DNA from: Spirochaetales bacterium Spiro_02
GTDB lineage: Bacteria > Spirochaetota > Spirochaetia > Sphaerochaetales > Sphaerochaetaceae
Assembly: GCA_001604275.1 (NCBI GenBank)
Contig: LVBD01000055.1
Span: 1 to 59,145, forward strand
DNA length: 59,145 nt
Direction: 5' to 3'
The translations under genes and the position numbers were made by a program. The notes beneath the pieces were generated by a model that did no database searches, was not told the DNA's origin, and saw only the letters and a list, made by a program, of their open reading frames with translations. Of this stretch, positions 1 to 47,775 are shown in pieces; the first letter of the stretch is position 1, and every line of letters starts with the position of its first letter.

Positions 1-191
1 AGTTCCGTTCCTTGAATTTAGGGCTTGACAACAGTAGTCAAATAAAAACTATTGACAGGCCCATTCCGCTTTATAAAAGGTCTTATCATCTTCTTGGATA
101 TTTTTTCTCAACGGATTATATTTGTTGCCAATACTCTCTTATTGAGCATCTTTTATGGTACCGCTTTGTTGTCAGCCAGAATATCATGGAT

Positions 192-1751
192 TCAATTCTT
201 TGAAACTTTAGGCATCAACACTTCAAGGGGCGTTTCCCCAGCCTTGTTTTTTATTGAAAAATCGGCACCTGAATTTCTCAATTCTTCCAGCACCACATTG
301 ATATTCTCCCGTTCGATATCATGATAGCGATCATCATTCAGGAAAGCATACCGGTTCATACGACAAAAACAATGTGCCGCCGTATTTCCATGAATATCTT
401 GGATATTCACATCCACCCCACTGGCTAGTATTTCAGACAAGCCAAGAATATCCTGCACGACATATTCCAGCAAATAATGGAGAAAAGTTTTTCCGTCATT
501 GTCCGTAGCATTCAAACGGACGCCATGGGACAAATACAAATTGAGAAATTGTCCCTGCAGAACATCATCGTGAATCCTCGGAAGGTACATCAATCCCGTC
601 ATGCCGCGTTGGTTCCGTGCATTGACGTCTACACCTGCGAGAATACAGGCTTCGGCCAAGTCAAACAATCGGCAATATGTAGCCTCCATCAAAACAGTCT
701 CACCTTTGTCACTGACACTTGTTATGGAAGCCCCATGCTCAAACGCATAGTCAATACTTTTTTTCCCTTCTGAAAATCCGAACCCGCCAAATATGAAACA
801 TGCTCGATGCAACATATGGTCGAAGCTTTTTTGTGTCAGATATGGACGGAACCTGGTCATCAAGGTATCGAACCATTGAATGTCGCCCATTGAATGAACA
901 TCGGCAAGACAATACCCCAATTCCCGATCAGTCAAAAGAGCATCAAGCCCCATATCCAAAAGGTACTGTACGACATCCCTCTTGTCGGATAGGATCGCGT
1001 ATGTGATTACGATACCGGTTCCTGTCGGAGCTGTTTCAGCTCCGTGATCAACGAGATATCGAACCAGTTCAAGATTTCCATTTGAGACTGCATTCAACAA
1101 AGGCGTACTGCCTTTTTTCACACAATTGACATCGGCTCCAGCTTCGATCAATCGTACTGCCACATCGAACAAACCGTAGGAACATATATCCAGCAAATAA
1201 TTGTAAGCGACTGCTTTTTCTATGTTCAGATACCGTGACGCGATTTCCATATATTCTTGAGCTTCGTCCAGATACCAAGACTCTGCGATCATACGGAAAT
1301 TCGTTTCAGGATACGAAAAGTCCTTGCAAGATCTCACGCAATCAAGGTATGCCCCATGCGTACGTTCCATCCATTCCGCAAAGTCATACTTGTTAAATTC
1401 ATACCAATCATTGCAAAAACAAGCGAAATACATCTCTTGGGATATTCGCTCATTCTCCGCCTGATTCTGAAAATCAATAGTCACGAATGGCCTGACAAAG
1501 TCAAGCAATTCAGATATTTCATCAAACTTCAGCACCTCCATATATGCCAAAAGCGTTGAATAATCAAGTTCGGAAAGTCCATAGTCTTTTTGGATACGAC
1601 GAAACACATCGAAAGAAGAAAGCCCCTGGATTTCCTTTCGCAAGGCATATGCGCCTGCAAGATAATATCGTTCGAACTCTTGTATTTCATTGCCGTGCAA
1701 CGTTCCCGTCAGAAAGGCATCCAACAATGCTTCACCGATAGATTTTGACAC
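192..1751 (-). CDS. Ankyrin-repeat protein
   Basis: The protein has 519 residues. From about residue 175 to the end it carries repeated ankyrin-like units, with signatures such as GSTPLLNAVSNGNLELVRYLVDHGA, split over several repeats (for example 'GETVLMEA', 'GKTFLHYLL' and 'GNTAAHCF'). The first third (about 1-170) is helical-looking and unrecognised. No signal peptide or membrane segment is visible, so it is probably a cytoplasmic protein-protein interaction scaffold. The start is GTG at 1751, chosen because AGGTG lies about 8 nt upstream. It is transcribed divergently from yaaA. Partner and function are unknown. Confidence 0.8.
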   Translation of the reverse strand: MSKSIGEALLDAFLTGTLHGNEIQEFERYYLAGAYALRKEIQGLSSFDVFRRIQKDYGLSELDYSTLLAYMEVLKFDEISELLDFVRPFVTIDFQNQAENERISQEMYFACFCNDWYEFNKYDFAEWMERTHGAYLDCVRSCKDFSYPETNFRMIAESWYLDEAQEYMEIASRYLNIEKAVAYNYLLDICSYGLFDVAVRLIEAGADVNCVKKGSTPLLNAVSNGNLELVRYLVDHGAETAPTGTGIVITYAILSDKRDVVQYLLDMGLDALLTDRELGYCLADVHSMGDIQWFDTLMTRFRPYLTQKSFDHMLHRACFIFGGFGFSEGKKSIDYAFEHGASITSVSDKGETVLMEATYCRLFDLAEACILAGVDVNARNQRGMTGLMYLPRIHDDVLQGQFLNLYLSHGVRLNATDNDGKTFLHYLLEYVVQDILGLSEILASGVDVNIQDIHGNTAAHCFCRMNRYAFLNDDRYHDIERENINVVLEELRNSGADFSIKNKAGETPLEVLMPKVSKN

Positions 1752-1877
1752 CGCTTTTCACCTCAACAACCATCCTATCATCGGAAAAAGAATATGTAAC
1801 GCTTACCTTTGGAATACAACCCTCAAAATACCATTTTACCGTTGAATTTTCTCTTTCCGCTTCCATACCTACCGTAC

Positions 1878-1906
1878 TTGTCCTCTTTTTCCGTTCCACC
1901 TACACT
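1878..1906 (+). promoter_or_regulatory. yaaA promoter, leaderless geometry
   Basis: TTGTCC (1878-1883), 17 bp spacer, TACACT (1901-1906). The yaaA ATG begins 6 nt after the -10 hexamer, so transcription should start at or next to the start codon. No Shine-Dalgarno sequence is visible. Seen in sequence; not tested. Confidence 0.5.
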
Positions 1907-1912
1907 GTTGAC

Positions 1913-2689
1913 ATGAAGATCATCATCTCCCCAGCCAAAAAGATGAGAACCGACTACGACTTTCTTGCCCCCCGAAACACCCCGGTATTCATCGACCGGG
2001 CAAAAAGACTCGTCGAATATTTGAAAGGCTTGTCCTACGACCAACTCAAGGTCTTGCTTGCATGCAACGACGAAATTGCGACCCTCAATTACGACCGGTA
2101 CCGCAGAATGGATTTGGAAGGACCCCTGACCAATCCTGCGATTCTCTCCTACGACGGCATCCAATACAAATACATGGCTCCGCAGGTCTTCGAGACAAAA
2201 TATTACGAATATATTGAACAGCATCTACGAATTCTCTCCGGACTGTACGGAATCCTCAGACCATTCGACGGCGTCGTCCCATACCGACTTGAAATGCAAG
2301 CAAAGGTGAAAACCGATTTCTGCAAGAACCTCTACGATTATTGGAATTCGGGAATCTTCACTGAACTGACCAAAAACGACAACGTTATCCTCAATCTTGC
2401 CTCCGAAGAATACTCCAAGATCGTGTCAAAATTCCTTGTAAAGGACATTACGTACATTACCTGTGTGTTCGGAGAGATGACAGAGGGAAAAGTCAAGGAG
2501 AAAGGTGTTTACGTCAAAATGGCCCGCGGCGAGATGGTACGGTTTATGGCGGAGAACAATATCACGGATCTACAGGATGTCAAACGTTTCGATCGACTGG
2601 GATTTGTCTATCGCGATAAACTGTCCGATGAGAAGGCATGGGTGTTCGTCAGAAATGGAAAGGAACATGCGGCAAACCCCATTGGATAA
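1913..2689 (+). CDS. yaaA: Peroxide stress protein YaaA (DUF328)
   Basis: The 258-residue product starts MKIIISPAKKMR, the family's hallmark N-terminus. It also has the conserved 'LSGLYGILRPFDGVVPYRLEM' region (residues about 105-125, here split as LSGLYG and LRPFDGV) and a C-terminal 'DRLGFVY' block. In E. coli YaaA lowers intracellular iron during H2O2 stress and binds DNA. The open frame extends 56 codons upstream, but the ATG at 1913 gives the usual family length and the conserved N-terminus. No Shine-Dalgarno is present and the predicted promoter sits directly against the ATG, suggesting a leaderless mRNA. A peroxide-stress role fits an anaerobe. Confidence 0.93.
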   Translation: MKIIISPAKKMRTDYDFLAPRNTPVFIDRAKRLVEYLKGLSYDQLKVLLACNDEIATLNYDRYRRMDLEGPLTNPAILSYDGIQYKYMAPQVFETKYYEYIEQHLRILSGLYGILRPFDGVVPYRLEMQAKVKTDFCKNLYDYWNSGIFTELTKNDNVILNLASEEYSKIVSKFLVKDITYITCVFGEMTEGKVKEKGVYVKMARGEMVRFMAENNITDLQDVKRFDRLGFVYRDKLSDEKAWVFVRNGKEHAANPIG

Positions 2690-38192: not shown

Positions 38193-40361
38193 TCAATGCT
38201 CGTCGAACAGCCCGGGAAGCATGGCATCTTCCGCATCCGACGCCGCCACCGGTTTCTTTCCCTCTATCGGTTTCCCCGGTTGTGTTTCCGGGTGATCATC
38301 GGCAAGCATTTGCAGGAACCGCGCCTCGTCTACGATGTCCACCCCCAGCGCCTCCGCTTGGGCGAGCTTGCTTCCCGCTCCGTCGCCTGCAAGCAGATGT
38401 GTCGTCTTTCCGGTGACGGAGCCGACGGTACGCCCCCCCCGCTTCTCAACTTCTTCCATGGCCAGAGAACGGGGGACGAAATGTTCGAACGACCCGGTCA
38501 CGCACCAGACCTGTCCGGCGAAAGTCTGGGACAGAGACGTCGGCTTCGGCTCGTCCTCTTCAAAACAAAGGCCCGATTCTCGCAATCTCGCTATACGGAT
38601 ACGCATCTGTGGATCATTCAGGCCATCAATCAAAAGTCTAGCTGTCTTCTCTCCGATCTGCTTGATCGCCACTAAGCGCTCCATGTCGTCGCGATCGGCG
38701 ATCTCCAGCAACTGATCCATCGACCGGATCCCGTCGGCGACGAGCAGATCGACCGCCTTCTTGCCGAACTCAGGAATCCCCAGCGAAACCAATACATTAC
38801 GAAACGGCTTTCCCTTGCTTTTCTCCACCCCGTCGATGATCAAGGATATCTTGCGGTCACCGAAACCAGGTTCTCCGCCGAGTACCGTGCGATAATCGAT
38901 CGCATAGATGTCCGGCACGTCCTTGAGCAGCCCTTTTGCGATCAGCACCGACGCAGTTTCGGGACCGAAGTTCTCGATATCCATCTGCCCTTTGCCGATG
39001 AAGAAATAGACTCGTCCAGCGATCTGGTCGGGACATTCGTAGTTCGGACAGAACGTATGCGCACCCCGCTGGACAAGCGGCGAACCGCATGTCGGGCAGG
39101 CATGGGGCATTCGCCACGTCGCATTGCCCAGCTCGTTCTTCTCGACGACCCGTTCGACAGCGGGAATGACGTCCCCGCGCTTCGATACTGAAACGATGTC
39201 TCCGACAGCCAGTTCCAGCATGTCCACATAATCCTGATTGTGCAAGGTGATGTTCGACACAGTGGACCCCCCGACGAACACAGGCTTGACCCGGGCCAAC
39301 GGGGTGACTCTGCCGGTACGGCCGATCTGGACATCGATGCTCTCAACGACGGTCTGCGCCTCGGGCGCTTCGAACTTATAGGCGATCGCCCATCGCGGAT
39401 GATGCTCGGTATAGCCGAACACCTCTCTGACGGAGATCTCGTTCACCTTGACCACCAGCCCGTCGATTTCATACGCGAGGGACTTTCGCGCTTCGGTACG
39501 GCGCACGATATATGCCGGTATCTCGTCGAACGACCCGGCGACCCCGTCCAAACCGGCCCGCTCCAGCCGTTCCCGGGCCTCCCGAGCATCCTTGCAGAAC
39601 AGCCCCAGCGTCGGATTGACCCGAAAGCCATATCGTTTCAATGCGGAAAGAATCTGCACATGGTCCTCGAACGGTTCGGCCCCATCCGCCCAGAACCCTT
39701 CATAAACGAAGATCTGCAAGGGAACTTTCGCGGCCTCGCTGCTCTTGATGCGCCGTACCGTACCGGCGGCCAGATTGCGAGGGTTCGCGTACGGAGTTTC
39801 CAATTCTTTGTTGATCGCCTCGAAATCGGCTCTCGGCAGGTACACCTCTCCTCTGACGGCGATATCGATCGGCTCCGTCAGCCGCAACGGAACCGAAGCG
39901 ATCGTCCTGATGTTCGCCGTCACCTCGTTTCCGACGAACCCGTTGCCACGGGTCACGGCACGCACCAACACGCCCTGCTCATAATAGAGGACCATCGACA
40001 CTCCGTCGATCTTCTCTTCGACCACGAACGACAGACCGCGATTCTCCTTGGTCTCGCTTTTCGCGATCCATCCCAGCACCGCGTCGGCGCTGTAGGCTTT
40101 GTCGAGGCTGAGCACCGGAATCGTATGCCGGACCTCGGGGAAATCGCTGGTCAAGTCGCTGCCGACCCGCTGCGTCGGAGAATCGGAAGTCTTCAGGGCG
40201 GGATGCTCCGCCTCCAATTCCACAAGCCGATCGAACAGACGATCGTATTGCGCATCGTCGACCAATGGCCGGCCGTCGACGTAATATGCCTTCTGATAGG
40301 TTCGCAGCAACTCGGAAAGCCGGGCGACTTCCTGTGCCGGTGAAGTGTCGCTATGATTCAT
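38193..40361 (-). CDS. ligA: NAD+-dependent DNA ligase LigA
   Basis: A 722-residue ligase. Adenylation site Lys117 in EEKIDGVSM, an OB fold, a four-Cys zinc finger (CPTCG...CPNYEC, about 426-448), helix-hairpin-helix repeats and a C-terminal BRCT domain (about 610-690). About 30 residues follow BRCT, ending in GLFDEH, longer than usual. The ATG has no Shine-Dalgarno, and a promoter-like pair ends 6 nt before it. First gene of the operon with the aminotransferase, the ModE-like regulator and pfk. Confidence 0.97.
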   Translation of the reverse strand: MNHSDTSPAQEVARLSELLRTYQKAYYVDGRPLVDDAQYDRLFDRLVELEAEHPALKTSDSPTQRVGSDLTSDFPEVRHTIPVLSLDKAYSADAVLGWIAKSETKENRGLSFVVEEKIDGVSMVLYYEQGVLVRAVTRGNGFVGNEVTANIRTIASVPLRLTEPIDIAVRGEVYLPRADFEAINKELETPYANPRNLAAGTVRRIKSSEAAKVPLQIFVYEGFWADGAEPFEDHVQILSALKRYGFRVNPTLGLFCKDAREARERLERAGLDGVAGSFDEIPAYIVRRTEARKSLAYEIDGLVVKVNEISVREVFGYTEHHPRWAIAYKFEAPEAQTVVESIDVQIGRTGRVTPLARVKPVFVGGSTVSNITLHNQDYVDMLELAVGDIVSVSKRGDVIPAVERVVEKNELGNATWRMPHACPTCGSPLVQRGAHTFCPNYECPDQIAGRVYFFIGKGQMDIENFGPETASVLIAKGLLKDVPDIYAIDYRTVLGGEPGFGDRKISLIIDGVEKSKGKPFRNVLVSLGIPEFGKKAVDLLVADGIRSMDQLLEIADRDDMERLVAIKQIGEKTARLLIDGLNDPQMRIRIARLRESGLCFEEDEPKPTSLSQTFAGQVWCVTGSFEHFVPRSLAMEEVEKRGGRTVGSVTGKTTHLLAGDGAGSKLAQAEALGVDIVDEARFLQMLADDHPETQPGKPIEGKKPVAASDAEDAMLPGLFDEH

Positions 40362-40499: not shown

Positions 40500-42686
40500 A
40501 TGGCAGAAAAGAAAGCGACACCGATCAACAAAATGAACAACCTCCACGGAATCATCATCCGTTCGACTGTGGACGAAGGACAGATCGTGGACATCCAGCT
40601 GCCGAAAATGGACAGCCATTTCCTCATCATCGCCGCCAGGGACATCCCCGGCAACAACCGCATCCAGATACTCGACAACCAGATGCCGTTGCTCGCTTCA
40701 TCGCAGATATCGTACAAAGGACAGCCGATACTGGCGTTGTTCGGCCATGATTTCGAATCGGTGGAGCTGACCGCGCGGGAAATCCAAATATCATACAAAC
40801 TTCCTCCGTCGGTCGCCGCCGCGGCCGCTTCCGTCGTACCGCCCCAGGAGGGAGAACCGGCTCCGACTTCTGACGGCCGGATCGCGCCTCCGCAGACGGT
40901 ACCCGCTCCTACCGGAGAAAAGTCCGAAGCGGAGCAGGAACCCTCCACTGCCCCCGCCGACGCTCCGGAGCCTCCGCGGCAGACCGTACAAACCGCACAA
41001 TCCGTACCGAGCGCGTCGTCCGCATCGAAAGACAAACGGAAGGTGGCGCTGAACGTTCCCCCCCGGACTCACGGCTGGGGCGACGTGAACGCGGTCTTCG
41101 CCCAGGAGGGGATCAAGATCTTTCAGAAGACCTATACGTTCCGCTCCACGCATAGCAGCACGAGTTCGATCATCAAGGTCTCCGCTACGAAAGTAGACGA
41201 CATGATGCATATCGACGCCCCCACCCAATGGCCGTTCCATCTGCGCGACACGGTCAGCGAGACCGTATCGATCCCCAAAAAGAAAATCGTCGTCCACCAG
41301 CAGCAATACTTCGCTCCATACGATGAAAAGCTCATCGAGCCGACGATATTGGCCTGTCTTGCCTCGATGGCTGCCAACATCACGGGCTTTTCCGTGGAGA
41401 TCCAGAGCCAACAGCCATCGATCTCTCCCGAAATCCTGATACTCAGAAAAAGCGCGATGGACAAATACGGCAAACCGCTGGCGGAACGGATCGATGTCAC
41501 CGTGGATCAAGGTGCGTTCCCGCTATTCAGCAACGAACTGATGAACCAGCTGATCGCAGGCCTTGTCCCCCTGTATCCGCTTCAGGCGATGCAGATCAAG
41601 ATCACCATCCTTACCAGTGCCACGCCTCCCGCCCATTTTTTCGGAGACCTTGGCTATGCAAGAGCCACAGCGAGCACCGAAGGTCACTATTCCCTGCTTG
41701 CCAGGGCGGCGGGGATGAATCCCGCCGACTGGCGGATGAAGTATCTCGGGGAGTATCCGCAGCGGACAGCCCAGATCGCGAGTGTCAGATTCTCCCGTCT
41801 GAAGGAGATGCTGACCGCCATCTGCGAAAAGAGCGACTTCCAGCGCAAGCATGCGACCTATGAGATACAACGAAGCCAGAAGCTCAGGATATCGACCTTC
41901 CTCAACTACTCCCGAGGAATCGGAATCGCCTGCGGAGCCGGCATCAGCGGATTCAGCGGCTCTTTCCCTCAAGGCAGCCAGTTCTCCGTCCAAGTCAAAC
42001 TGGATGCGAACGACAAGACACATCTCAACACGTCGTTCCCGACGAAATCCTCAAGTGCAAGCGTATGGAAGGCCATCGTCGCCAGGGAGCTGGATGTGGA
42101 CGACGACGATGTCGATTTCATCGAGGACCCCATGGAGATCGTCGACAGTGGTCCGGTCGTTCTCTCGCGGAACATCGGACGGCTGCCGCTGCTGTTCGAG
42201 AAAGCCTGCGCCACGGTCAAGTCCCAGCGGTTCATCGAACCGTTGCCGATCGTCGCCTCGTGCAGTTCGAAAAGTACCGTTTCATCAGGATCCCAGTTCT
42301 ACAGCGACAGCTGGGCGGCGCTCGTGCTGGAGCTGGAGATCGACACGATCTCGCTGCAACCGGTCATCAGACACGCGTGGGCTTCGTTCGACTTCGGCTA
42401 TGTGCATGATGAACAGGCGCTCCGGTCGAAAGTGCACAACATCATCGTCAGGACGCTCGTCGAGAACGGAGCTCAGCTGAGCAAAAAGAAAAACAACGAG
42501 TTCTCCATGGACATCGAAATCTCGACGCAGAGCAAGGGGGAGCCGATTTCGATCAGTTCCGTTCTCCACGGGCTGGTCATTTCGGCACTGGGAAACGCCA
42601 TCATCCAGGCGCTGGACGCCGACATCCCCTACATGCCCGTCGCCGCGGAAGATGTGCTCGATGCGATCAGAGGAGGCGAAGCATGA
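40500..42686 (+). CDS. Divergent xanthine-dehydrogenase-like large subunit
   Basis: A 728-residue protein in the place of a molybdopterin subunit. Residues about 15-105 match the aldehyde-oxidase/XDH a/b hammerhead domain ('YKGQPILALFG' for the usual Y-x-G-Q-P-V). A Pro/Ala/Glu-rich linker of about 65 residues follows (about 110-175), unusual in this family. The rest aligns in outline with the cofactor-binding domain ('GDVNAVFA', 'APTQWPFHLRD', 'KGEPISIS' near the end), but the GG-x-FG-x-K motif is replaced by 'QQQYFAPYDEK'. Molybdopterin binding is doubtful. The start follows CGGAGA. Stop overlaps the next gene by 4 bp. Confidence 0.82.
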   Translation: MAEKKATPINKMNNLHGIIIRSTVDEGQIVDIQLPKMDSHFLIIAARDIPGNNRIQILDNQMPLLASSQISYKGQPILALFGHDFESVELTAREIQISYKLPPSVAAAAASVVPPQEGEPAPTSDGRIAPPQTVPAPTGEKSEAEQEPSTAPADAPEPPRQTVQTAQSVPSASSASKDKRKVALNVPPRTHGWGDVNAVFAQEGIKIFQKTYTFRSTHSSTSSIIKVSATKVDDMMHIDAPTQWPFHLRDTVSETVSIPKKKIVVHQQQYFAPYDEKLIEPTILACLASMAANITGFSVEIQSQQPSISPEILILRKSAMDKYGKPLAERIDVTVDQGAFPLFSNELMNQLIAGLVPLYPLQAMQIKITILTSATPPAHFFGDLGYARATASTEGHYSLLARAAGMNPADWRMKYLGEYPQRTAQIASVRFSRLKEMLTAICEKSDFQRKHATYEIQRSQKLRISTFLNYSRGIGIACGAGISGFSGSFPQGSQFSVQVKLDANDKTHLNTSFPTKSSSASVWKAIVARELDVDDDDVDFIEDPMEIVDSGPVVLSRNIGRLPLLFEKACATVKSQRFIEPLPIVASCSSKSTVSSGSQFYSDSWAALVLELEIDTISLQPVIRHAWASFDFGYVHDEQALRSKVHNIIVRTLVENGAQLSKKKNNEFSMDIEISTQSKGEPISISSVLHGLVISALGNAIIQALDADIPYMPVAAEDVLDAIRGGEA

Positions 42687-43228
42687 AAATCGAATGCACC
42701 ATAGACGGCAAGCATCTCTCCCTATCGGTGAACTCGAACAAGCCGCTTTCGCTGATCCTCATGGAGGAAGCGGGCAATCAGTCCCTCAACAGCAGATGTA
42801 GGGGGAACAACTGCGGCAACTGCATTGTCCTGCTCAATGGGGAGGCCGTCCTATCCTGCATGATTCCCGCGTTCCGGCTACGGGGGGCGGATATCAAGAC
42901 ATTCGACAGCTTCCAGAAGACCAGGGCTTGCCACGATATCGAACGAGCCTATGCCGCTACGGGCAGCAAGCCCTGCCCAAATTGCTATGCCGCCAAGACG
43001 CTGATCATCGAATCCATCCTCCAGGGGCTGGAACGTCCCGACGATAGCCAGCCGTTCCCGCTGCCAGCCCGCGGGCGCGTGCAGAACCTGACCGAAGAGC
43101 TCGATCCCGAGAACATCATCCAGGAACTGGAACTCAACCGATGCCGATGCATGGATTCCGCAGAACTTCTGCAGATCGTGAACATCGCCGCGGGATACAG
43201 GAGGCGCAGACGTGTACGAAGGAATTAG
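42683..43228 (+). CDS. XDH-like [2Fe-2S] subunit
   Basis: A 181-residue protein with both clusters of xanthine dehydrogenase small subunits: plant-type Cys39-x4-Cys44-x2-Cys47-x11-Cys59, and Cys98-x2-Cys101 with Cys154-x-Cys156. All eight ligands are intact, which suggests real electron transfer despite the degenerate partner. The C-terminus is Arg-rich (RRRRRVRR). GAGGAGG stands before the ATG; ends overlap both neighbours. Confidence 0.9.
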   Translation: MKIECTIDGKHLSLSVNSNKPLSLILMEEAGNQSLNSRCRGNNCGNCIVLLNGEAVLSCMIPAFRLRGADIKTFDSFQKTRACHDIERAYAATGSKPCPNCYAAKTLIIESILQGLERPDDSQPFPLPARGRVQNLTEELDPENIIQELELNRCRCMDSAELLQIVNIAAGYRRRRRVRRN

Positions 43229-44096
43229 ATCTCCGGCGATCCACACCCCGCGGTCCGTCAGTGAATTCATATCCACAGCTTCCCATTATCCCCACGCGGT
43301 CATCTGGGCCGGCGGAACCTATATCATGGGAAGGCCGAACTACTACCCGTCGGACGGACTTACCGACATCATCTATCTTGGCGAAATCGCCGACCTGAAG
43401 AAGATCACCAGGAACGACCGGTTCATCGAAATCGGTTCGATGGTGACCGCCAGCCAGTTGCTCAACGCAGGAAAACTCGTCCTGTCCGATGTGCTGTTGG
43501 ACACCCTGAGCAAGGTCGGGTCGAAAATCGTCCGAAAGCAGATTACGATCGGAGGGGCGCTGTGTACGCCGGACATCAGGCTGGTTCTCCCCGGCTCCTT
43601 GGCAATTCTCGATGCGATCGTCGAAGTGAAGCAGATACAGGGCAACAAGACGATCAACCGCTGGATCCCCGTTTCCCGTCTGTACGATAAGGATGGCCAG
43701 TTGCTTCTGACTGGAATGAATCTGATCACCAGAGTGCGGATCGGTCTGGAGACCGGAAATTTTCAGCGCTTCATGATGGTCGACAGTCCCGTCCACGATC
43801 CCAAGCGTTGCGTCATTTTCGCCTTCCAGTGCACGAAAGGGCAGAGCAACATGTCCAAGGCGCATTTCTGCTTCACGTTCCCGACTGCCGGTTTCCACAT
43901 CAGCAGGGAGTTGGAGACGCAGCTTTCCGGCCAGCCCCTTCCGGTTCCCCCGCAACGGATCAACCGGCTGTCCTTCGCGCTGACTTCGGAAATCCACAAG
44001 ATGCATCCGCAGGTCACCGACTTGCAACTGGAACGCTGTCGCAGAATGTTCGAAGCAGTGTTCCATGAGCTGAATACCGAGGTATTGGAAGAATAG
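43212..44096 (+). CDS. XDH-like FAD-binding subunit
   Basis: A 294-residue protein of the CoxM/XdhB type. 'IWAGGTYIMGRPNYYP' (about 34-49) corresponds to the AGGTD flavin loop, with Tyr for Asp. 'KQITIGGALCTPD' (about 112-124) corresponds to the second FAD loop, and the C-terminal CO-dehydrogenase-flavoprotein domain follows. The GTG start is fixed by GGAGG 8 nt upstream. It overlaps the Fe-S subunit by 17 bp. The altered flavin loop leaves FAD binding uncertain. Confidence 0.85.
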   Translation: MYEGIRSPAIHTPRSVSEFISTASHYPHAVIWAGGTYIMGRPNYYPSDGLTDIIYLGEIADLKKITRNDRFIEIGSMVTASQLLNAGKLVLSDVLLDTLSKVGSKIVRKQITIGGALCTPDIRLVLPGSLAILDAIVEVKQIQGNKTINRWIPVSRLYDKDGQLLLTGMNLITRVRIGLETGNFQRFMMVDSPVHDPKRCVIFAFQCTKGQSNMSKAHFCFTFPTAGFHISRELETQLSGQPLPVPPQRINRLSFALTSEIHKMHPQVTDLQLERCRRMFEAVFHELNTEVLEE

Positions 44097-44277
44097 CGAG
44101 ATCGTGCCGTCGATGTCCGATCCGTTTTTCCGGCGACAACGGTCTACCCCCATCCAGCCATGATATGCTACAATGGCCGATAAGCCGAACCGCCATGTGG
44201 GTCGTCCATGGAATGCGCCGGACAGCCGGCGCAGGACAGCAGGACGAACAGGAACGGCTCCAGGAGTACAACAGGCA

Positions 44278-47200
44278 ATGTCCCAATTCGTTCATCTGCA
44301 CAATCATACCGATTATTCGCTACTCGACGGAGCGGCGAAAATCTCCAAGTACGTGGAGAAGGCCAAGGAATTCGGCATGACGTCCCTGGCGATCACCGAC
44401 CATGGCAACATGTTCGGCGCTCTGCGATTCTACCGTGCATGCAAGGCCGCTGATATCAACCCGATCGTCGGCTGTGAATTCTATGTCAATCCGGAAAGCC
44501 ATCGCCAGCGTGGAACGGTGGCGGGAGGAAGCCGGAACTACCATCTGGTGTTGCTCGCCATGAACGAGAAAGGCTATCACAACCTGATGGAGCTCAACTC
44601 CATCGCCTACACCGAAGGCTATTACTACAAGCCGAGAATCGACGACCAGCTGATCACCGAGCACCAGGAAGGATTGATCTGTCTATCGGCCTGCCTTGCC
44701 GGTGAAATTTCGCAGCTTGTCCTCAACGAGCAGTACGACCGGGCGTTGGAACGGGTCAACTGGTTCAAGTCGGTCTTCGACGACGGACGGTATTATATCG
44801 AAGTGCAGGACCATGGGCTGCCGGAGCAGCACAGGATCAATCCGATCCTCAAGCGTCTGTCAGAACAGACCGGCGTACCGTTGGTCGCCACCAACGACAT
44901 CCACTACATCAACCAGGACGACGCGAACGCCCAGGACATTTTGTTGTGTATCGGCACCAACTCAAAGAAGAACGACGCCGACCGGATGCGCTTTCCCACC
45001 CAGGAATTCTATATGAAAAGCCCCCAGCAGATGGAGGAGCTGTTTTCCTGGTGTCCGGAGGCGGTGGAGAATACGGCCAGGATCGCGCAACGGTGCAACC
45101 TAGAGATCCATTTCCCAGGCCCGCTGCTCCCTATCTTCGAAGTTCCGGAAGGGTTCGACGACACGTCGGACTACCTGCGGCATCTTGCATCGGAAGGGCT
45201 GATCCGAAGATACGGGGAAGCCACGCCGGAACTGACCCAGCGGCTCGACTACGAACTGGACACCATCATCAAGATGGACTTCCAGGGCTACTTCCTGATC
45301 GTCCGCGACTACATCTACTGGGCGAAAACCCATGGAATTCCCGTCGGTCCCGGCCGAGGTTCCGGCGCCGGCTCGCTGGTCGCATACTGCATAGACATCA
45401 CCGACGTGGATCCGATCAAGTACAATCTGCTGTTCGAACGGTTCCTGAACCCTGAACGCGTATCGATGCCGGACTTCGACATCGACTTCTGCTTCGAACG
45501 GCGACAGGAAGTCATCGACTACGTGACGGAGCACTACGGCATAGAACGCGTCGCGCAGATAGCGACCTTCGGAACGCTCAAGGCGAAAGCGGTGGTCAAG
45601 GATGTGGCGCGGGTGCTCGACATTCCGTTCGACGAATCGAACCAGATCTGCAAATTGATCCCCGATGATCCGAAGATGACCTTGGACAAAGCGATGGAGA
45701 TGAGCCCGGAACTGAAGGAGAAGGCTGAATCCGGCGGAATCTATGGGGAGCTGTTCGATGTTGCCAAGCGAATCGAGGGAATGAACCGTCACACGTCGAC
45801 GCATGCCGCCGGAGTGGTGATCGGCAAGGAAGCCCTGATAAACTATGTTCCGCTGTACCGAGACCCGAAGACCGGGGCCATTTCCACGCAATATACGATG
45901 GATCTGATCGAGGACTGCGGGCTGGTCAAGATGGACTTCCTCGGGCTCAAGACGCTGACGCTGATCAAGCATACCGTCGACCTGATCCGCAAGCGGGAGC
46001 CGGACTTCGATATCGAAAAGATATCCGACACCGACGGCCCGACCTTCAAGATGCTCTGCGATGGAGAAAGCGCCTGCGTGTTCCAGTTCGAAAGTCCCGG
46101 CATGCAGCGGATCCTGCGCGACGCGCAACCGAGCAGCATCGAGGACCTTGTAGCATTGAACGCCCTGTATCGGCCGGGACCGATGGCGTACATCCCCCAG
46201 TTCGTCGAATGCAAGCACGGCAGAAAGCCGATCACCTATGCCGATCCGGATCTGGAGGACGAGCTGAAGACGACCTATGGCGTCATCGTCTATCAGGAAC
46301 AAGTCATGAAGGTGGCCCAGATCATAGCCGGATATACCCTCGGCGGAGCCGACATCCTGCGCAGGATCATGGGCAAGAAGAAAAAGGACAAGCTGGCGGA
46401 GGAGAAAGTCAAGTTCATAGCCGGAGCGAAAAAACTCGGTCGGGATCCGAAACATGCGGCCGAGATATTCGAGATGCTCGAACCGTTCGCCGGCTATGGA
46501 TTCAACAAATCGCATGCGGTGGCCTACTCGGTCGTCGCCTATCAGACAGCGTTTCTCAAGGCGAACTACCCCGCCGAATTCATGGCGGCGAACCTGACCA
46601 ACGAAATCAACAACCCGGATAAGTTCACCGAATACCTGCTCAAGGCGAAGGACATGGGGCTGGAGATCCTGCCGCCGACGATCAACTTCTCCGACAAGCA
46701 CTTCAACGTCGTAGACGGCAAGATCGTCTACGGACTGGCAGGAATCAAGAACGTCGGCGAAGGGGTCGTGGAACTGATCGTCAAGGAACGCGAAGAACAC
46801 GGCCCCTACAAGGACTTCATGGATTTCCTCATGCGTGTCGATGCAAAGGCGATCAACTCGAAACTATTGGAATCGCTGATCCATGCCGGAGCGTTCGATG
46901 CTTTGGGAACAAACCGTCCGACGTTGATCAACAATCTCGAAGCTGCGGTCAAATTCGTACAGAAACGACGTGAAGCCCAGGCCTATGGGCAATGTTCGCT
47001 GTTCGATGCGGAAGAAGAAGCCGCGATGGACGTATTCGACATGGTCCCCGCACCTGACTTCGGAATCATGGAGAAACTCGAGAAAGAGAAGAGCCTGCTC
47101 GGATTCTACATATCCGGCCATCCGCTCGACCTGTACAAGGATGCGTTCAAGCGGTGCGTCACCGTCGATATCGGACATACCGACCGGTTGCCGAAGAACA

Positions 47201-47775
47201 GGACCTGCGCATTGATCGCCATGGTCACGAGCCTGCGGGAGTTCATTACCCAGAAAGGTTCGAAGATGGCGTTCCTTGCCTTGACGGACTTCAACGGAAC
47301 CATCGACGCCACGGTATTCCCGAAAACATGGGAAAGGATCGGCCCCCAGATCCAAGTGGACGGAATCTACGGCTTCAAAGGCAAATTCGACAACAACCGG
47401 GATACCGAGAAATATTCGTTCCTCATCGACGAGGTGGTCGACCCAAACTCGCTCGAACCGGAAGCGGTACGGGAAGCCCATATCTCGTTGCAGAAAGAGA
47501 TGTGCACCCCGGTGGCGCTGAGGGAACTGATGGATCTGTGCCTGTCCTATCAAGGATCCTGTTCGATGCTCCTCCATGTATCGGAGAGCTTCCAGTCCCA
47601 GGACCCGGCGCCTTCTGCGGACGAAGATCCGTCGAAGCCGCAGGAAACCCTGCAGGAAATCCAGAAGGAATGCGCGATAGTCCAGGCCGGCAGGGAGTTC
47701 TCGGTCAGATATTCCGAGGACTTCCTCGAAGAGTTGCGGCGGCTGCCGCTGGTCAGATCCGCATGGTACAACTGA
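44278..47775 (+). CDS. dnaE: DNA polymerase III alpha subunit
   Basis: The replicative polymerase, 1165 residues. The PHP domain begins at once (MSQFVHLHNHTDYSLLDGA, metal-site His7/His9). Catalytic Asp residues are in 'MPDFDIDFCFERRQEV' (about 397-412) with another in the palm at 'AFAGYGFNKSHAVAYS'-region motif. The tail has an OB fold (about 990-1070). The frame is open 35 codons upstream but the ATG at 44278 starts the PHP domain correctly; AGGAG lies 12 nt before it. Confidence 0.97.
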   Translation: MSQFVHLHNHTDYSLLDGAAKISKYVEKAKEFGMTSLAITDHGNMFGALRFYRACKAADINPIVGCEFYVNPESHRQRGTVAGGSRNYHLVLLAMNEKGYHNLMELNSIAYTEGYYYKPRIDDQLITEHQEGLICLSACLAGEISQLVLNEQYDRALERVNWFKSVFDDGRYYIEVQDHGLPEQHRINPILKRLSEQTGVPLVATNDIHYINQDDANAQDILLCIGTNSKKNDADRMRFPTQEFYMKSPQQMEELFSWCPEAVENTARIAQRCNLEIHFPGPLLPIFEVPEGFDDTSDYLRHLASEGLIRRYGEATPELTQRLDYELDTIIKMDFQGYFLIVRDYIYWAKTHGIPVGPGRGSGAGSLVAYCIDITDVDPIKYNLLFERFLNPERVSMPDFDIDFCFERRQEVIDYVTEHYGIERVAQIATFGTLKAKAVVKDVARVLDIPFDESNQICKLIPDDPKMTLDKAMEMSPELKEKAESGGIYGELFDVAKRIEGMNRHTSTHAAGVVIGKEALINYVPLYRDPKTGAISTQYTMDLIEDCGLVKMDFLGLKTLTLIKHTVDLIRKREPDFDIEKISDTDGPTFKMLCDGESACVFQFESPGMQRILRDAQPSSIEDLVALNALYRPGPMAYIPQFVECKHGRKPITYADPDLEDELKTTYGVIVYQEQVMKVAQIIAGYTLGGADILRRIMGKKKKDKLAEEKVKFIAGAKKLGRDPKHAAEIFEMLEPFAGYGFNKSHAVAYSVVAYQTAFLKANYPAEFMAANLTNEINNPDKFTEYLLKAKDMGLEILPPTINFSDKHFNVVDGKIVYGLAGIKNVGEGVVELIVKEREEHGPYKDFMDFLMRVDAKAINSKLLESLIHAGAFDALGTNRPTLINNLEAAVKFVQKRREAQAYGQCSLFDAEEEAAMDVFDMVPAPDFGIMEKLEKEKSLLGFYISGHPLDLYKDAFKRCVTVDIGHTDRLPKNRTCALIAMVTSLREFITQKGSKMAFLALTDFNGTIDATVFPKTWERIGPQIQVDGIYGFKGKFDNNRDTEKYSFLIDEVVDPNSLEPEAVREAHISLQKEMCTPVALRELMDLCLSYQGSCSMLLHVSESFQSQDPAPSADEDPSKPQETLQEIQKECAIVQAGREFSVRYSEDFLEELRRLPLVRSAWYN

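Follow-up and report, generated by a model that had tools for sequence, protein, structure and literature searches.

A xanthine dehydrogenase-like trio of the Spirochaetia that has probably ceased to be a molybdoenzyme

Introduction

A stretch of 59,145 nucleotides from Spirochaetales bacterium Spiro_02 (contig LVBD01000055.1 of assembly GCA_001604275.1; hereafter "the window") contains, at 40500-44096, three overlapping genes for a large molybdopterin-type subunit, a [2Fe-2S] subunit, and a subunit of the type that binds flavin adenine dinucleotide (FAD). These are the subunit types of the three-subunit molybdenum hydroxylases of the xanthine oxidase family, the closest known systems, which include the xanthine dehydrogenase (XDH) of R. 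capsulatus (1jro) as well as nicotinate dehydrogenase (3hrd), 4-hydroxybenzoyl-CoA reductase (1rm6), and CO dehydrogenase (1n61). An earlier note, made from the letters of this DNA, had located the three genes, and the open reading frames were found where it placed them, with overlaps of 4 bp (large and [2Fe-2S] genes) and 17 bp ([2Fe-2S] and FAD genes). The same note had read the trio as an XDH-like complex that retains its electron wiring around a degenerate active site, and had suggested a different cofactor or substrate, or a non-catalytic electron-transfer complex. Here, we followed the trio across the order Sphaerochaetales and the class Spirochaetia. Descent places it in the XDH fold superfamily, and its gene order and derived losses assign it to a spirochaete trio. 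This trio is probably best regarded as a class-wide pseudo-xanthine-dehydrogenase that is no longer a molybdoenzyme and whose core role would be structural or regulatory.

Results

An XDH fold without molybdopterin motifs

Chance likeness to XDHs can be excluded because the large subunit matched Pfam MoCoBD_1 at 63.7 bits, the FAD subunit matched FAD_binding_5 at 71.4 bits, and a profile-profile comparison aligned the large subunit with canonical XDHs over its full length (E 6.8e-47). The hammerhead domain (32.9 bits) was also recognized in the large subunit, and the [2Fe-2S] subunit matched Fer2 (25.2 bits) and PDB 4zoh_C (E 3.9e-11). Matches to the NCBIfam equivalogs of genuine XDHs were far under the cut-off (e.g., 52 bits vs 849.5). 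AlphaFold2 (AF2) models were obtained for the large and FAD subunits as single chains, and each was compared with the PDB by Foldseek and VIA. The large-subunit model (predicted local distance difference test score, pLDDT, 86.9; predicted template modeling score, pTM, 0.86) presents a complete XDH/aldehyde oxidoreductase fold with hammerhead and MoCoBD domains, with a Foldseek E of 6e-39 to 1jro_B and VIA Z values of 33-35 across 619-632 residues at ~16% identity (35.0 to 1dgj and 33.8 to 1jro_B, over 619-628 residues). Similarly, the FAD-subunit model (pLDDT 89.0) matched 4zoh_B (Foldseek E 4.8e-16) as well as 1jro_A and 3nvv_B (VIA Z 26.2). For the large subunit, the ATG at 40500 was preferred as start over 40353, because the order consensus opens with MAE.

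The window proteins share with the three-subunit hydroxylases named above the whole-length large and FAD folds, eight iron-sulfur (FeS) cysteines, and FAD motifs, but the large subunit lacks GGxFGxK, AFRGFG, GQG, and the catalytic Glu, and the genome lacks MoaA, MoaC, and MoeA. The absence of GGxFGxK had been claimed before, and alignment to canonical XDHs both upheld it and extended it to the other three sites, with SISSVL at the catalytic GxGE position (Table 1). A regular-expression search for GGx[FY]G and RG[FY]G turned up no instance in the window protein or across an alignment of 82 order members, and neither GGxFG nor RGFG was present in any of 61 class members, while all four canonical comparison proteins have both. 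Canonical motifs at shifted positions, an alternative that the earlier note had itself raised, are thus rejected, the search having covered all orthologues. Outside Sphaerochaetales, the GxGE motif is kept in some class members. Since the defining features that we tested fail, we do not file the window trio as a molybdenum hydroxylase.

The large subunit also carries a Pro/Ala/Glu-rich linker, which the earlier note had described and which is real: 91 residues separate K100 from W192, where orthologues have a median of 18, and residues 124-179 are predicted to be disordered (pLDDT <50). The linker was rejected as a key to function because it is a lineage-specific detail.

Molybdenum cofactor synthesis and canonical paralogues

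No molybdopterin-synthesis gene lies in the window, as had been noted; this means little alone, but for MoaA, MoaC, and MoeA it holds throughout the genome of the window (G000), which is 99.7% complete. Normal molybdenum cofactor (Moco) pathways were not found in close relatives either, MoaC being present in 11/139 and MoeA in 2/139 order genomes, all 139 of which have a MoCoBD_1 protein. Across the class, MoaA was detected in 6/37 genomes (one below cut-off) and MoeA in 4/37. The degenerate gene is the sole MoCoBD_1 match in 18 class genomes, and 16 of these 18 lack MoaA as well as MoeA; G437 and G315, in which it is likewise the only MoCoBD_1 protein, have both.

The lack of Moco synthesis in the window genome does not exclude salvage, and its canonical XDHs raise the same question. 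This genome encodes three XDH large subunits with GGx[FY]G (L001, L002, and L003), yet none of MoaA, MoaC, or MoeA, which points to salvage of Moco or else to enzymes that are unusual too. The three paralogues are homologous to the window large subunit by the profile comparison above, but they retain GGxFG, and their MoCoBD_1 scores are 229-258 bits, compared with 66 for the window protein. One of them, L002 (454-3330), is a 958-aa XDH-like fusion whose N-terminal FeS domain is without cluster cysteines and which keeps GGxYG.

Stepwise loss of redox centers under continuing selection

All eight cluster cysteines that had been reported for the [2Fe-2S] subunit were confirmed by alignment with canonical XDHs, consistent with two [2Fe-2S] sites, though Pfam Fer2_2 gave no match in this protein. 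The FAD subunit has both the AGGT and IGG motifs. Its AGGTY variant is present as reported but is a minor feature: because the residue after G-G-T varies in the family while G-G-T itself is conserved, AGGTY is no evidence of lost FAD, and reading it as a loss of FAD binding is unsupported.

We scored each trio on a tree and counted losses under a Dollo model; four canonical trios, one of them archaeal and the others from further classes of the phylum, served as the root. The Spirochaetia trio separates from canonical XDHs with a support of 0.81 at the class base, and a single loss of GGxFG, no later than that base, accounts for all 61 class members. Subsequent losses number at least five for the cluster-1 cysteines (L238 with L263, the Borrelia-like clade, L244, L266, and L041), at least two for cluster 2, lost or half-lost (L041; L244 with L250), and at least two for the FAD AGG motif (Borrelia-like proteins; L251), all of these counts being approximate and liable to shift by one or two because the tree has weak support at its deep nodes. 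The nearest relative sampled, L041 (from genome G077), clusters with the window protein at a support of 0.84 and keeps only one of the eight cluster cysteines. Cluster 2 (CxxC...CxC) is otherwise the most durable site. Retained electron wiring is thus an accurate description of the window protein, but not of a core of the family. An electron-transfer complex with a new cofactor may hold for the window protein alone; it leaves the survival of the trio without those sites unexplained.

Borreliae are said to use little iron, and zinc is for that reason a possible occupant of the cluster-2 site in the Borrelia-like FeS homologues (L239-L242 and L277), which keep the CxxC...CxC cysteines and have lost all those of cluster 1.

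Despite these losses, the Borrelia-like copies of the trio are under purifying selection (ratio of non-synonymous to synonymous substitution rates, dN/dS, 0.09-0.47), and a pseudogene was rejected on the basis of conservation and dN/dS. Some positions are constrained in the divergent clade only: Glu138 of the FAD subunit occurs in all divergent and Borrelia-like proteins compared, where canonical ones have Arg or Ile, and P583 and Q703 of the large subunit are strongly conserved in the divergent clade. This looks like gained constraint rather than mere decay.

A near-universal trio in the class

The large subunit has an orthologue in 138/139 order genomes, and the order large-FeS-FAD was seen in nearly every order locus that we read (L025 is cut by a contig end). 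The named relatives are Sphaerochaetaceae. Many families of the Spirochaetia have loci with this trio, its genes arranged alike, and matches to the FeS-subunit profile were detected in 256/393 phylum genomes, a count to which canonical paralogues contribute. A horizontally acquired local oddity is rejected by the near-universal presence and the conserved neighbors in the order, which are LigA and DnaE; LigA also lies near the trio in Borrelia-like genomes, and a DnaE-like same-strand downstream neighbor is found in Sphaerochaetales and in 12/40 other loci.

Five Borrelia-like chromosomes of 0.90-0.92 Mb carry the trio between ligA and genes read as ptsI, crr, htpG, and gnd. All three subunits gave significant profile matches in four of the five; the large subunit of L241 was without a profile match and was assigned by position only. 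These trios are probably bb0554-bb0556 of Borrelia burgdorferi ("xdhACB", putative xanthine dehydrogenase or CO-dehydrogenase-like), because gene order and the published description agree. The window trio shows the gene order of this group and is probably orthologous to it, with the difference that the Borrelia-like proteins have also lost the cluster-1 cysteines and FAD motifs, both of which the window proteins keep. The title of a published Borrelia paper calls the complex critical in ticks and mice. Transposon screens tie bb0554-bb0556 to peroxide resistance and tick survival (PMC5333916, PMC6516651), bb0554 and bb0555 having turned up in the tick screen (PMC6516651), and this phenotype is reported for Borrelia only (PMC5333916, PMC6516651).

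A Treponema pallidum-like genome (G194; a single contig of 1,139,633 bp) carries the trio in the same order (L238), with the molybdopterin motifs lost as in the window, the cluster-1 cysteines lost, the FAD motifs kept, and a nucleotide-sugar dehydratase and a DegT aminotransferase preceding it. We take this locus to be the TP0079-TP0081 region. A limited literature search returned no paper on TP0079-TP0081 and none describing the class-wide pattern.

A frequent but dispensable dehydratase/aminotransferase context

Of 40 class loci counted from outside Sphaerochaetales and the Borrelia-like family, 24 have a DegT aminotransferase gene directly upstream of the trio, overlapping it or within 20 bp in 22 of those 24; a FlaA1-like nucleotide-sugar dehydratase is present in 25 of the 40, and 15 have a NusG-like protein. 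A NusG-like/FlaA1-like/DegT cluster abuts the trio upstream in L238, L244-L248, L257, L264-L271, and others, with DegT often overlapping the large-subunit gene. No DegT relative was detected at E 1e-10 in G000, G077, or the five Borrelia-like genomes, all of which keep the trio. The pathway is therefore not required to keep the trio, and an obligate link was rejected as a universal explanation.

Discussion

Judging from the sequences, it is very likely that the class trio carries out no Moco catalysis. In none of these lineages is it likely to be a molybdenum xanthine dehydrogenase, and the label "putative xanthine dehydrogenase" is doubtful. We also favor, with rather less assurance, a core function independent of internal electron transfer. 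The earlier proposal of an XDH-like complex whose molybdenum site has degenerated, probably non-canonical or non-catalytic, is borne out in its fold, motif loss, and missing Moco pathway, but the idea that retained electron wiring defines the function does not serve as a general account. The fuller scenario, in which a molybdoenzyme became, when the Spirochaetia arose, a near-universal non-enzymatic scaffold, sensor, or regulatory complex that keeps its three subunits and sheds its redox centers singly, has in our view about an even chance of being right. The account that we prefer, and hold to be somewhat more likely than not, is of an XDH-fold heterotrimer inherited throughout the class, whose large subunit gave up its molybdopterin site in a single event no later than the class base and which would hydroxylate nothing with molybdenum. 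Cluster 1, and sometimes cluster 2 and the FAD motifs, were lost repeatedly thereafter, and the Borrelia-like copies, which have lost most, are still under selection. The assembled complex would most likely act as a scaffold or as a regulatory or sensor complex, in which flavin and/or FeS centers may be optional structural or redox-sensing elements, and the class-wide derived residues (P583 and Q703 of the large subunit, Glu138 of the FAD subunit) would mark the new constraint. We propose a probable role in envelope or oxidative-stress homeostasis because of the Borrelia screens (peroxide, tick survival) and the coupling to a nucleotide-sugar dehydratase and aminotransferase in most other lineages.

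Several observations weigh against a structural or regulatory core. The eight cysteines and FAD motifs are kept in the window protein and in most relatives, such that redox function may persist in most lineages; the four cluster-2 cysteines survive even in the Borrelia-like proteins; the GxGE motif kept by some class members suggests a retained catalytic remnant; and the loss counts are loose, as stated above. Sequence also does not tell scaffold and sensor roles apart. The retained cysteines and FAD motifs lend themselves to a possible, though unlikely, account in which the trio is a working flavin/iron-sulfur oxidoreductase in most lineages, the former molybdopterin-dinucleotide pocket holds a new ligand, e.g., a nucleotide sugar from the upstream dehydratase and aminotransferase, and the cluster and FAD losses are secondary. 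The frequency of DegT and FlaA1-like genes upstream and the retention of the catalytic-Glu motif in several members outside Sphaerochaetales are in line with this account; the DegT-free genomes that keep the trio, together with five separate cluster-1 losses, including that in the closest sampled relative, after which the complex was retained, are not.

A diverged but genuine molybdenum hydroxylase, binding molybdopterin via other residues and relying on salvaged Moco, appears quite improbable. The whole-length XDH fold agrees with it, and salvage is conceivable since genomes without MoaA, MoaC, and MoeA carry other XDHs with canonical motifs; G437 and G315 have MoaA and MoeA, with the degenerate gene as their only MoCoBD_1 protein. 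Against this, all dinucleotide and pterin contact motifs are lost, as is the catalytic Glu in Sphaerochaetales, 16 class genomes have the trio but lack MoaA, MoeA, and any further MoCoBD_1 protein, and the Borrelia-like proteins are no longer recognized by MoCoBD_1. The chance that the trio is a decaying relic without function is close to negligible: the sequences have diverged strongly and have lost ligand residues again and again, as would fit decay, but the gene is present in 138/139 order genomes, the frames are open even in genomes of 0.9-1.1 Mb, the dN/dS values indicate purifying selection, and transposon phenotypes are reported in Borrelia (PMC5333916, PMC6516651).

A trio called "xanthine dehydrogenase" spans a class to which relatives of the agents of Lyme disease and syphilis belong, and reading it as a pseudo-xanthine-dehydrogenase redirects the search for its function. 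It further provides, within a single complex, a natural series of graded cofactor loss, and opens a direct test of which subunits and residues are still needed once the redox centers are gone.

Features of the locus

The trio, its degenerate and retained sites, and the flanking genes are collected in Table 1.

Table 1 Positions in the window of the trio, its sites, and its neighbors
Feature	Positions	Strand	Basis and remarks
Large (molybdopterin-type) subunit, 728 aa	40500..42686	+	Pfam, AF2 model, VIA; XDH fold without molybdopterin motifs
Ala/Pro/Glu-rich linker, ~residues 113-185	40836..41054	+	Alignment and AF2 model; lineage-specific insertion
Degenerate GGxFGxK site, YFAPYDEK, residues 270-277	41307..41330	+	MAFFT and hhalign vs canonical XDHs
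Degenerate AFRGFG site, HFFGDLG, residues 379-385	41634..41654	+	MAFFT and hhalign vs canonical XDHs
Degenerate catalytic-Glu site, EPISISSVL, residues 681-689	42540..42566	+	Alignment; Ser687 replaces canonical Glu
[2Fe-2S] subunit, 181 aa	42683..43228	+	Pfam Fer2, PDB match; 40 order members aligned
Cluster 1 (N-terminal, ferredoxin-type), Cys 39, 44, 47, 59	42797..42859	+	Aligned with canonical XDHs
Cluster 2 (C-terminal), Cys 98, 101, 154, 156	42974..43150	+	Aligned with canonical XDHs
FAD-type subunit, 294 aa, GTG start	43212..44096	+	Pfam FAD_binding_5, AF2 model, Foldseek, VIA
FAD motif AGGTY, residues 33-37	43308..43322	+	Alignment
FAD motif IGGA, residues 113-116	43548..43559	+	Alignment
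Glu138 of FAD subunit, derived residue	43623..43625	+	Conservation comparison
LigA-like DNA ligase	38193..40361	-	Named by sight; divergent neighbor, most Sphaerochaetales loci
DNA polymerase III alpha (DnaE)-like	44173..47775	+	Named by sight; downstream of trio

Away from the trio, the first part of the window (1-2000) has a G+C content of 0.43, against 0.50-0.60 over the remaining window.

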